From Bacteroidota bacterium (GTDB taxonomy: Bacteria; Bacteroidota; Bacteroidia; UKL13-3), in the NCBI GenBank assembly GCA_947464275.1, contig CANHVU010000018.1:1-64000 (forward strand): a stretch of DNA of 64,000 bases, written 5' to 3'. The notes beneath the pieces were generated by a model. It ran no database searches. It was not told the DNA's origin and saw nothing but the letters and a program-made list of their open reading frames with translations. Position numbers and translations under genes: made by a program. This document shows positions 56,769-61,004 of the stretch, one piece after another (the stretch's first letter is position 1; each line of letters opens with the position of its first letter).

Positions 56769-57188
56769 TTGAAAAAGTTCGCGTTAGATATTACAGATGA
56801 GGAAGAAACACTTTTTTACGGATTGCTTAGCAATGAAAAAGTGTCGCGCCTAGCATGGTTATTAAACCATTCACTCGAAATAAATTTGGCTAGAGTTGAT
56901 TACATTGAATGGTATAACGAATCGGAAAGAGAATATTTTTATTTCAATAAATTTATTTATAACGATGAGTTAAACCACTTAACCTACACACTATTTGCCA
57001 ATTCCGATGAAAGTAAAATTCTTTTTACAGAATTAAGAGCCATGCAATATTTTATTTTAATTGAAGGTGCGCTTTCCTTTTTTGATGAAAAATTATTTTT
57101 AAAACAAGTAAAAACTATTTCTGAAATTCAGCTTGTTAGTTTAATAGACCAAACAAGGCTAAAACAGAAAGTAAATTTAATATTATAA
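56769..57188 (+). CDS. IPExxxVDY-family protein
   Basis: 139 residues from a TTG start at 56769 (MKKFALDITDEEETLFYGLL). The fold is alpha/beta with acidic N-terminus and a long final helix. The family's C-terminal motif I-P-E-x-x-x-V-D-Y appears as IQLVSLIDQ, which keeps only the I, the V/I and the D. It lies 18 bases before pyk, the position typical for this Bacteroidota family. Function unknown. Confidence 0.8.
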   Translation: MKKFALDITDEEETLFYGLLSNEKVSRLAWLLNHSLEINLARVDYIEWYNESEREYFYFNKFIYNDELNHLTYTLFANSDESKILFTELRAMQYFILIEGALSFFDEKLFLKQVKTISEIQLVSLIDQTRLKQKVNLIL

Positions 57189-57206: not shown

Positions 57207-58643
57207 ATGAGTAAAGCACTTTTTAACCGTACCAAAATTGTGGCTACTATTGGGCCAGCTACTAGCAGTTTAGAAAATTTAAAAGCCATTATTAACGAAG
57301 GAGTTGATGTATGTCGTTTAAATTTTTCACATGGTTCATATGCCGATCATCAGCAGGTTATTGATAATATTAGGCAAGCCAACGAAGATTTAGGAACTAA
57401 TGTTTGTATGCTTTTAGATTTACAAGGTCCTAAGTTACGTGTAGGTGAAATGGAAAATGGTAAGGTAGAGTTAATTCAAGGTGAAATAATAGAAGTTACT
57501 ACCGAAAAATGCATTGGAACCAGTAACCGCATTTATATCAATTTTGAAAATTTACCTAAGGATGTAAATCCAGGCGAACGCATTTTATTAGATGATGGAA
57601 AACTAGAATTAAAAGTAATTGAAACCAATAAGAAAAACTTGGTGAAAGCCGAAGTTATTTTTGGTGGATGGTTATCAAATAAAAAAGGTTTTAACTTACC
57701 CAATACCAAAATGAGCATTCCAAGTATGACTCAAAAAGATTTGGATGATTTGAAGTTTGGTTTGGATAATAAAGTAGAGTGGGTAGCACTTTCATTTGTA
57801 AGAAACGAACATGATGTTGTTTTTATAAAAAATATTATTGAATTAAACGATTGGAAACCTCGCGTAATTTCAAAAATAGAAAAGCCGGAAGCTGTTGCCA
57901 ATATTGATAAAATCATTGCTGCTTCTGATGGAATTATGGTAGCGCGTGGCGATTTAGGTGTAGAAATGCCAATGGAGCAAGTGCCCGTTATTCAAAAACG
58001 CATTGTAAAAAAATGTATTGAAGCAAGCAAGCCTGTTATCATTGCTACGCAAATGATGGAAAGCATGATAGTAAGCCCAGTGCCAACTCGTGCTGAGTTA
58101 AACGATATTGCCAATGCAGTTATGGATGGTGCCGATGCAGTAATGTTAAGTGCTGAAACTTCGGTAGGTGCCTATCCAGTTAATGCCATTAGCTATATGC
58201 GCAGAACCATTATGGAAGTAGAAACAGGAACCAATGCTCCTTATTTTAAAGGAACTCGACCTACAGAAGATAGCGAAACCTTTTTATCAGATGAAATATG
58301 TTTTACTGCTGTAAGGGTTAGCGACCATTTAAAAGCAAGTGCCATTGTGGGTATGACTTTTTCGGGTTATTCGGCTTATAAAATTTCATCTTTCCGCCCT
58401 AAAGCAAGTATTTTTATTTTTACTACCAACCCGCGTTTGGTTAATACTTTAAGTTTGGTTTGGGGTGTGCGTGGCTTTTTATACCGCGAGTTCGAAAGTA
58501 CCGATGATTCAATGCAAGATGTAAATAATAACCTGTTAAAAGGTGGTTATATTCAAAAAGGACAATTGGTAATTAATACTGCAAGTATGCCAATTATTGA
58601 ACGTAATAGGGTAAATACCATTAAAATTTCTGAAATAAAATAA
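57207..58643 (+). CDS. pyk: Pyruvate kinase
   Basis: 478 residues. A-domain motifs CRLNFSHGSY, the catalytic Lys in VISKIEKPEAV, the metal/phosphate site MVARGDLGVEMP and TQMMESMI, with the B-domain inserted at ~70-170 and a shorter C-domain. It converts phosphoenolpyruvate and ADP to pyruvate and ATP. Second of five genes in a compact operon (gaps of 18, 6, 9 and 9 bases). Confidence 0.97.
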   Translation: MSKALFNRTKIVATIGPATSSLENLKAIINEGVDVCRLNFSHGSYADHQQVIDNIRQANEDLGTNVCMLLDLQGPKLRVGEMENGKVELIQGEIIEVTTEKCIGTSNRIYINFENLPKDVNPGERILLDDGKLELKVIETNKKNLVKAEVIFGGWLSNKKGFNLPNTKMSIPSMTQKDLDDLKFGLDNKVEWVALSFVRNEHDVVFIKNIIELNDWKPRVISKIEKPEAVANIDKIIAASDGIMVARGDLGVEMPMEQVPVIQKRIVKKCIEASKPVIIATQMMESMIVSPVPTRAELNDIANAVMDGADAVMLSAETSVGAYPVNAISYMRRTIMEVETGTNAPYFKGTRPTEDSETFLSDEICFTAVRVSDHLKASAIVGMTFSGYSAYKISSFRPKASIFIFTTNPRLVNTLSLVWGVRGFLYREFESTDDSMQDVNNNLLKGGYIQKGQLVINTASMPIIERNRVNTIKISEIK

Positions 58644-58649
58644 TACATT

Positions 58650-59033
58650 ATGAATAAGTTATTTGCTATTTTACTAATGGCTATAATGGTTACGTCATGT
58701 ACTAAAACCGAAACCATAGCTACTCCTGCGCAAACTATTATAACCAGTGATAGTTCACAGTTTAGCGGACGTTTAAAAGTGGTGGTTTTAGATGGAACCA
58801 ATAACAATGCTCAAATTAATGGAGCGCAAGTATTTTTATATCCATCTTACGAAGATTTAAAGCGTAATTTTTATTTAAATACCATTTCTACCGTAAGTGG
58901 AACAGCCGATTTTGGTTTTATACTGCAAGGCAATTATTACCTGAGGGCTCAAAGTGGCACCAAAAGCGATACCAATGTGGTGCAAGTATTGGGGCAAAAA
59001 ACCATTACCAGAACCATGATTGTTCGTCAATAA
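58650..59033 (+). CDS. Small lipoprotein with a carboxypeptidase-regulatory-like fold
   Basis: 127 residues. Lipoprotein signal with lipobox TSC (MNKLFAILLMAIMVTSC). The remaining ~100 residues look like one beta-sandwich (GRLKVVVLDG..VSGTADFGFILQGNYYLRAQ), similar to carboxypeptidase regulatory-like or CARDB-type modules. Six bases after pyk, nine before the DUF2480 gene. Function unknown. Confidence 0.75.
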   Translation: MNKLFAILLMAIMVTSCTKTETIATPAQTIITSDSSQFSGRLKVVVLDGTNNNAQINGAQVFLYPSYEDLKRNFYLNTISTVSGTADFGFILQGNYYLRAQSGTKSDTNVVQVLGQKTITRTMIVRQ

Positions 59034-59042
59034 TGTAATAAA

Positions 59043-59561
59043 ATGGATTTAGCAGAATTAGATTTAATTGAAAATAAAGTAGCTAACAGTGGCCTTATTA
59101 CCATTGATTTAGAAACCTTGCGCCATGCAGGCATAAGGGTTTTGTTCGATATTAAAGATTGGCTTTTTAGGGAAATGATTTTAAAGGAAAAAGACTTTAG
59201 AGATTTTGTTAAAAACCACGATTGGAGCCAATACCAAAACCAAAATATAGCTTTTTATTGCAGTACAGATGCCATAGTGCCTACTTGGGCTTATATGCTT
59301 TTGGCCAGTGCGGTGCAGCCTTATGCCAATAAATATGTGTTTGGCAATTTAGAACAACTCGAAATAGCATTGTATAACGATGCCATTGCACAACTGAATC
59401 CTGCCGATTATGCTGATAAACGCATTATTTTAAAAGGGTGTAGCCAAAATGAGTTGCCCATTGCTGCTTATGTAACCATGAGCAATAAGTTACTACCAGT
59501 GGTAAAAAGTTTAATGTATGGCGAAGCTTGCAGCAATGTTCCTATTTATAAAAAACGATAA
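59043..59561 (+). CDS. DUF2480 family protein
   Basis: 172 residues, cytoplasmic, with the family's opening IENKVANSGLITIDLE and a conserved YCSTDAIVPTWAYMLLASA. A C-terminal KGCSQNELPIAAYV and Cys-containing end (GEACSNVPIYKKR) are seen. The family is confined largely to Bacteroidota and has no assigned function. Fourth gene of the pyk operon. Confidence 0.88.
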   Translation: MDLAELDLIENKVANSGLITIDLETLRHAGIRVLFDIKDWLFREMILKEKDFRDFVKNHDWSQYQNQNIAFYCSTDAIVPTWAYMLLASAVQPYANKYVFGNLEQLEIALYNDAIAQLNPADYADKRIILKGCSQNELPIAAYVTMSNKLLPVVKSLMYGEACSNVPIYKKR

Positions 59562-59570
59562 AAGAATTAA

Positions 59571-60188
59571 ATGAATCAAAACGTAAAAATTAAGTTGGGC
59601 AATATTACCAACTTAAGCGATGCCCGCTTTGCAGCCGCAGCAGGCATTGATTATATGGGTTTTTGTTTTGACCCTCAAAGTGTAAGTTATATTCCGCCAG
59701 TTAAAGCCAAAGAAATTATTGATTGGACTACAGGATGTTTTGTAGTGGCGGAGTTTGGAAACCAAACCATGAAAGAAGTGGCCGATATAGTTGACATGTT
59801 AAACATTGATATTGTAGAACTAAATAACGATTTATTGCCAACCGATTTAGCCGAAATTGATAAGCCTATTATTAAAAAAATTGATACCAGTTTATTTGAT
59901 TTAACTGCGCTCCATAAAATTTTTGAAGCCTATACTGATAAAATAGATGCTTTTCATTTATATGCAAGCAATGGACATACTTTAACTGCTGACGATTTAA
60001 AACAAATTTGTGCTAATAACAAAATAGTTTGGGGTTATAATACTGCTCCTGAAAACATAAAAGAAACATTGGCTAATTATGAGCCTTATGCCTTAAATAT
60101 AATAGGAGGCGATGAAGAAAAAACTGGCCTTAAAGACTTTGAAGAATTGAACAATGTATTAGATGCATTGGGATTATACGAAGGATAA
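59571..60188 (+). CDS. TrpF-like TIM-barrel protein lacking both catalytic residues
   Basis: 205 residues. The overall plan is that of phosphoribosylanthranilate isomerase: a first strand followed by NLSDARFAAAAGIDYMGF, and a phosphate-binding end GGDEEKTGLKDFEEL. However the catalytic Cys of K-[IV]-C-G is a Gly (IKLGNIT) and the region matching the general acid Asp reads DAFHLYAS, with Tyr where D is expected. It is therefore unlikely to be a true TrpF; a different or non-catalytic sugar-phosphate binding role is possible. Last gene of the pyk operon, followed by a terminator. Confidence 0.8.
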   Translation: MNQNVKIKLGNITNLSDARFAAAAGIDYMGFCFDPQSVSYIPPVKAKEIIDWTTGCFVVAEFGNQTMKEVADIVDMLNIDIVELNNDLLPTDLAEIDKPIIKKIDTSLFDLTALHKIFEAYTDKIDAFHLYASNGHTLTADDLKQICANNKIVWGYNTAPENIKETLANYEPYALNIIGGDEEKTGLKDFEELNNVLDALGLYEG

Positions 60189-60210: not shown

Positions 60211-60250
60211 AAAAAAAGCTATCAAGTGTAAAAACTTGATAGCTTTTTTT
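60211..60250 (+). terminator. Terminator of the pyk operon
   Basis: A 17-bp stem (60211-60227 with 60234-60250) has loop GTAAAA; the core is AGCTATCAAGT/ACTTGATAGCT between an A7 and a T7 run. Confidence 0.95.
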
Positions 60251-60329: not shown

Positions 60330-61004
60330 TTAGAACTCTTTCGCAGAAAGTTCTTTTATCAAATTTCCGTTTAAATCAAATAAACAATTTTGAGTATATC
60401 TTCCTTTACTCTCAATTTGTCCTTGATTGTTTTTTGTCTCAATACCTGTGATTTGAACTTCAATACCTTTCGCAGTTACTTTTTGTAACCACCCTGCTTT
60501 GAAGAAAACTAATTTGTTTGTCTTGAAATTATAGTAGTGAATTGCTGAACAAACTGTCCAACCGTTTGTCTGAAAATATAATCTCTCCCCGTTATTTGTT
60601 AAACTAGGAGACTCGAAATTGCATAAATTATTGTTTGGGTAAATACTTGAATTTGCATAGTCTGGTTTAGTCCCACCCAAACCGTCTAAACAAGTTGTAA
60701 AAATTGCTATATCCTTTTTTGTTGTTAAGTTGAAGACGCGAATAGAAAGCTGGTCGTATGATTCTTCGCCTTCATTTCCTTCCGTTTTTGATTTTTTAAT
60801 AACTCTTTGATAGACAACAAAATTTTTAGTTTTTGAGTATGCAATAACTGAGTTGTCTCCTTTCGAAACAATTTCTTTTGAGCTACCATTTTCGTATTGC
60901 ACGAATATTTTTCCATCCTTAGTAAAGGCGTTAATTAACATTTGTGCATTGCATAAATTTACTAATAAAATTGTCGTAACGATGCTTGTAATAAATCTTT
61001 TCAT
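60330..61004 (-). CDS. Exported protein of unknown function
   Basis: 224 residues with a signal peptide (MKRFITSIVTTILLVNLCNAQ). The mature part is beta-rich with repeated short strands such as FVQYENGSSKEIV and YFQTNGWTV, which could be a WD40/PQQ-like propeller fragment, but no family is certain. Single gene with no operon partner. Confidence 0.7.
   Translation of the reverse strand: MKRFITSIVTTILLVNLCNAQMLINAFTKDGKIFVQYENGSSKEIVSKGDNSVIAYSKTKNFVVYQRVIKKSKTEGNEGEESYDQLSIRVFNLTTKKDIAIFTTCLDGLGGTKPDYANSSIYPNNNLCNFESPSLTNNGERLYFQTNGWTVCSAIHYYNFKTNKLVFFKAGWLQKVTAKGIEVQITGIETKNNQGQIESKGRYTQNCLFDLNGNLIKELSAKEF

Follow-up and report, generated by a model that had tools for sequence, protein, structure and literature searches.

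The pyk operon and its last gene

The window, by which we mean the whole 64,000-nucleotide stretch of Bacteroidota DNA analysed here, holds a run of five genes that all lie on the plus strand. The first encodes an IPExxxVDY family protein (56769-57188) and stands directly upstream of the pyruvate kinase gene, pyk (57207-58643), after which come a small putative lipoprotein gene (58650-59033), a gene for a DUF2480 protein (59043-59561) and, following a gap of 9 nt, an open reading frame (ORF) of 205 amino acids (59571-60188), whose product is predicted to be a TrpF-like (beta-alpha)8 barrel without the TrpF active site. Among the 80 loci of relatives that we compared, the IPExxxVDY gene was kept upstream of pyk in 20 and the small lipoprotein gene was kept between pyk and DUF2480 in 16. 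Beyond the ORF, reading by eye revealed a 16-bp perfect inverted repeat with a 6-base loop that ends in a T-run (60212-60249). It sits between the operon and a convergent gene (60330-61004) and is a probable terminator closing the operon; a consensus scan missed it. A promoter scan returned sites no more numerous than in shuffled sequence. We regard the pyk-DUF2480-TrpF-like operon as genuine, and the original prediction was right that the ORF is encoded with pyk and DUF2480 and not with trp genes.

Homology to TrpF, predicted fold and the active site

The ORF matched the phosphoribosylanthranilate isomerase (PRAI, TrpF) family PF00697 over nearly its full length, with 41.6 bits against a cut-off of 22.7, and 29 of 31 family members matched the same model at E <= 0.001. 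TrpF of Thermotoga maritima (1lbm/1nsj) matched the ORF at E 1.6e-11, far above chance. Sequence and profile searches both gave the TrpF enzymes of T. maritima and Thermus thermophilus as the nearest solved structures, and the best PDB matches were all TrpF. The NCBIfam TrpF equivalog models all scored far too low for assignment, the best reaching 73.7 bits where 215 were required. An AlphaFold2 model built from a 21-row alignment (pLDDT 87.8, pTM 0.84) contained eight strands and eight helices, its least certain part being the loop after strand 8 (residues 183-187, pLDDT < 50). When this model was compared with known structures by Foldseek and VIA-align, only TrpF structures ranked at the top: Z scores were 20.7-23.2 for single-domain TrpFs (22.8-23.2 for that of T. 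maritima), 19.4-21.2 for TrpC-TrpF fusions and 17.0 for the best barrel that is not a TrpF. By sequence and by predicted structure, the ORF is a TrpF homologue with a TrpF-type (beta-alpha)8 fold, which bears out the TrpF-like character originally assigned to it.

In T. maritima TrpF, Cys7 and Asp126 are catalytic and Arg36 forms a salt bridge with the anthranilate carboxylate (PMC2667513). Alignment with the TrpF structures placed Gly10 of the ORF (codon 59598-59600) at the site of Cys7, Tyr131 (59961-59963) at that of Asp126 and Ser39 (59685-59687) at that of Arg36, so that the predicted replacements of Cys by Gly and of Asp by Tyr were confirmed. The loss proved wider than had been recognised, as the QLHGxE motif, the GG of the phosphate site in loop 7 and the D.SS of loop 8 were all replaced as well. 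In a column of 81 relatives, the Cys7 position was occupied by Ser (57), Asn (12), Gly (11) or Tyr (1) and never by Cys, whereas Cys was present in all 54 of the true TrpFs compared (24 of them sister-lineage and reference enzymes, the other 30 belonging to the ORF's own class). Asp126 was kept in 6 of the 81 and Arg36 in 3; position 126 otherwise varied among Tyr, Glu, Asn, Thr and Lys. As a whole, the family lacks ten residues that are invariant or nearly so in the 54 true TrpFs: Cys7, Gly8, Arg36, His83, Gly84, Glu86, Asp126, Gly158, Asp178 and Ser181. Conversely, the family has a near-invariant Glu (43 of 46 members) as residue 61, at the end of strand 3 (codon 59751-59753), where every one of the 54 true TrpFs has Val. 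In some Cytophagales-type members a G-x-G persists in loop 7 and the Asp126 position is occupied by Glu.

A catalytic Cys or Asp might have been recovered at shifted positions, but no conserved one was found among the 81 relatives; cysteines at positions 21 and 32 were considered and rejected, being clade-specific and off the Cys7 site. We also searched the genome for a second trpF, as had been proposed, and found none, the ORF being its only PRAI match. Neither indole-glycerol-phosphate synthase (IGPS, trpC) nor TrpA (trpA) was found when looked for in the same genome. Genome incompleteness was discarded as the cause, since not one of the order's 64 genomes had IGPS, a single-contig genome (G062) among them, while all 14 control genomes were positive. 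The absence of IGPS across the order suggests order-wide tryptophan auxotrophy or another route. Judged from its residues, the protein has almost certainly lost TrpF activity. That the ORF is instead a divergent yet active TrpF could be argued from its PF00697 score and its predicted fold, but the missing catalytic Cys and Asp, the shortfall against the equivalog models and the lack, in genome and order alike, of an IGPS to use the product make this extremely improbable.

Relatives, origin and gene neighbourhoods

Relatives of the ORF were present in 59 of the 64 genomes of its order, almost always in single copy, and in 44 of the 45 with completeness >= 90% and contamination <= 5%. That an order lacking IGPS keeps the gene in nearly all of its genomes suggests a core function. 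A scan of the collection returned at least 567 relatives, of which the best 80 were used for alignments and loci; these include Spirosoma, Larkinella, Pontibacter, Adhaeribacter, Emticicia, Fibrella and Sporocytophaga. A strict motif pattern scan of the phylum found the family in 13 of 392 genomes, a lower bound. Some Cytophagales-type genomes that encode a TrpF-like protein also hold the tryptophan pathway including IGPS, and four of them (G112, G139, G174 and G135) each carry a complete true TrpF beside it. Literature searches on TrpF-type pseudoenzymes in Bacteroidetes returned nothing on such a family, and none of the papers searched names DUF2480.

We placed the family in a maximum likelihood tree of 100 sequences (LG+G4, 1000 ultrafast bootstraps; rows L066 and L069 are partial sequences). 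The 46 family members formed one clade (support 96), which grouped with the TrpFs from the phylum's other classes (67 tips, support 98), whereas the TrpFs of the ORF's own class formed a separate clade (30 tips, support 100). The family thus stands beside the TrpF of other Bacteroidota classes and not beside the trp-operon TrpF of its own class. The phylum was seen to hold two TrpF lineages, one of the KICGIT/DAR type in other classes (L117-L141) and the own-class lineage, mostly of the KVCGM or KVCGL type (L156-L185). On a simple reading, an old TrpF lineage was released from its part in making tryptophan and acquired another role, the pathway being served by a second TrpF; horizontal transfer is a possible alternative.

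We then compared gene neighbourhoods, assigning 39 of the 80 loci to the order by similarity rather than by taxonomy and treating the remaining 41 as outside it, some loci being short. DUF2480 lay directly upstream in 20 of the 39 own-order loci, and DUF2480 or pyk lay near the TrpF-like gene in 22 of the 39 and in none of the 41. Among the outside loci, mnmA was upstream in 18, and downstream stood pspC in 19 or trmB in 10. Other neighbours away from the pyk locus were pspC/liaI, mgtC/anmK and an enoyl-CoA hydratase-like gene. In Pontibacter and Adhaeribacter (L079, L081, L086, L097-L100 and others) the gene was observed between a divergent mnmA and a trmB-folC-tonB block, and is thus flanked by tRNA-modification genes. 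No operon partner was conserved family-wide among the 80 loci, and neighbours varied by clade.

These comparisons bear on the role first proposed for the protein, namely a sugar-phosphate sensor without catalysis that would be linked to pyruvate kinase and lower glycolysis. The gene is indeed co-directional with pyk and DUF2480, lying 9 nt from DUF2480 in the window and overlapping it by 4 nt in several relatives, and loop 8 is partly kept as GGxEE. However, with the short loci borne in mind, the gene was not at a pyk locus in 17 of the 39 own-order loci nor in any of the 41 outside, and the phosphate-site residues of TrpF in loops 7 and 8 are mostly lost, the uncertain modelling of loop 8 further weakening the case for sugar-phosphate binding. 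The tie to glycolysis was not supported; it is a weak link that looks like local context and not a family trait, and a glycolytic sensor appears to us unlikely. The operon is real, yet what the family does cannot be read from it.

Selection, a natural deletion and the proposed role

The window gene is under purifying selection, with dN/dS of 0.063-0.075 against its nearest relatives and of 0.16-0.21 against more distant ones, for which dS is near 1. On the values for nearest relatives we rejected the idea that the gene is a remnant of a vanished trp operon, decaying as a pseudogene. Although the apparent loss of the tryptophan pathway in the order would accord with such decay, the gene is intact in almost all genomes, its invariant motifs extend across the family, and the family forms its own clade and elsewhere coexists with a complete TrpF; we give this explanation virtually no credence.

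Conservation is unevenly distributed along the barrel. Across the whole family, 15 of 66 positions in strands 1-3 were at least 90% identical, as were 2 of 27 in strand 8 and none of 47 in strands 6-7. The most conserved stretch is the N14-L-S-D-A-R19 motif after strand 1 (59610-59627), in which Leu15, Asp17, Ala18 and Arg19 were invariant in alignment A2. In loop 8, the motif GGDEEKTGLKDF (residues 179-190; 60105-60140) includes the near-invariant Glu182 and Gly186. The DAR of the first motif, Trp52, Gly55, Glu182, Gly186 and Lys188 are common to the family and to sister true TrpFs and may have a structural role. Strands 8, 1, 2 and 3 are adjacent in the closed barrel, so that selection keeps one sector of it.

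A natural deletion was found in genus g3, where all five genomes (L186-L190) encode a version of 154-163 amino acids that is shorter by about 50 residues in the strand 5-7 region and keeps strands 1-3 and the strand-8 loop (for example, ORF L187:1437-1904). Its first 62 residues showed dN/dS of 0.03-0.07 in the pairs with computable dS, and the remainder evolved faster. In a second group, g9, two genomes lack shorter parts of the same region. The g3 version was modelled from a shallow alignment with low confidence (pLDDT 70, four of five models < 45), and the model indicates no more than that strands 1-5 are plausible. Where looked at (L187, L189), the short gene adjoins an enoyl-CoA hydratase-like gene. 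TrpF-like chemistry is hard to reconcile with the loss of the strand 5-7 region in g3, which speaks rather for a binding face.

The ORF product fits a pseudoenzyme, being a clear enzyme homologue without the catalytic residues that is conserved and under purifying selection. We consider it a pseudoenzyme of TrpF descent that most likely serves another protein as a non-catalytic binding partner, in the manner of a regulatory or scaffolding subunit, and put the probability of this reading at roughly 0.55. The conserved sector, we infer, is the binding face and the partner a protein. The contact face would be a sector of the barrel rim formed by the loops after strands 8, 1, 2 and 3, and would comprise NLSDAR, GFCFD, Glu61-Phe62 and the EExxGxKDF loop. 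We do not favour pyruvate kinase as the partner. Against a binding partner, a ligand or a new reaction could instead be what Glu61 and loop 8 are kept for, and strands 1-3 could be conserved for folding only.

The main rival is that the barrel keeps or has evolved another enzymatic reaction, whose chemical groups would be Glu61 and the Glu of loop 8. The newly gained Glu61, the retention of Glu182 and Gly186 and the Cytophagales-type members described above speak for this. However, besides Glu61 no new near-invariant acidic or basic residue appears at the strand ends, position 7 is variously Ser, Asn or Gly, position 126 is Tyr, Glu, Asn, Thr or Lys, and a whole genus has dispensed with the strand 5-7 region. 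We hold a new reaction to be possible but doubtful, at somewhat better odds than the glycolytic sensor.

For the family as a whole, we judge the chances about even that several hundred proteins of Bacteroidota constitute a previously unnamed family of TrpF-derived pseudoenzymes, probably sprung from an ancient, second lineage of TrpF in the phylum, which turned into a conserved binding protein of some core process and outlasts the trp pathway even as an incomplete barrel. Because PF00697 tags the family as TrpF, pathway predictors may score a tryptophan step where the pathway is missing. The family also offers a natural series that begins with full TrpF, passes to the inactive barrel and ends with the internally deleted one, and in which the change of an enzyme fold into a binding protein can be studied, and a core function is testable in cultured relatives of Spirosoma, Larkinella, Pontibacter or Emticicia.

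Among known proteins, T. maritima TrpF shares with the family its length, the (beta-alpha)8 fold, the NL.DA start of helix 1, the GF after strand 2 and the E..xGxK of loop 8. It differs in Cys7, Asp126, Arg36, His83 and the GG, D and SS residues, all replaced in the family, which forms a separate clade and whose host order has no IGPS. The TrpFs of other classes of the phylum (for example, L117-L124) are the closest true enzymes in the tree and share ITNLxDAR and Trp52/Gly55; unlike the family, they keep all catalytic residues (KICGIT, SPRYI, LFD[TS]K, SGGL, DvSSG) and many adjoin trpC. Further afield, PDX1.2 works with its active paralogue. In the synthesis of vitamin B6 by plants, this non-catalytic paralogue has a regulatory and not a catalytic part (PMC6829848). 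PDX1.2 belongs to a different enzyme family, and no active paralogue was found in the window's genome. In eudicots, the tryptophan synthase beta pseudoenzyme TSB-like acts within its own pathway by activating the alpha subunit (PMC12727527). TSB-like is unrelated to the ORF product in fold and lineage, and its alpha subunit partner was not found in the window's genome; as a functional precedent only, it is nonetheless alike in being a tryptophan-pathway enzyme without its original chemistry that acts as a binding partner, as the ORF product would.
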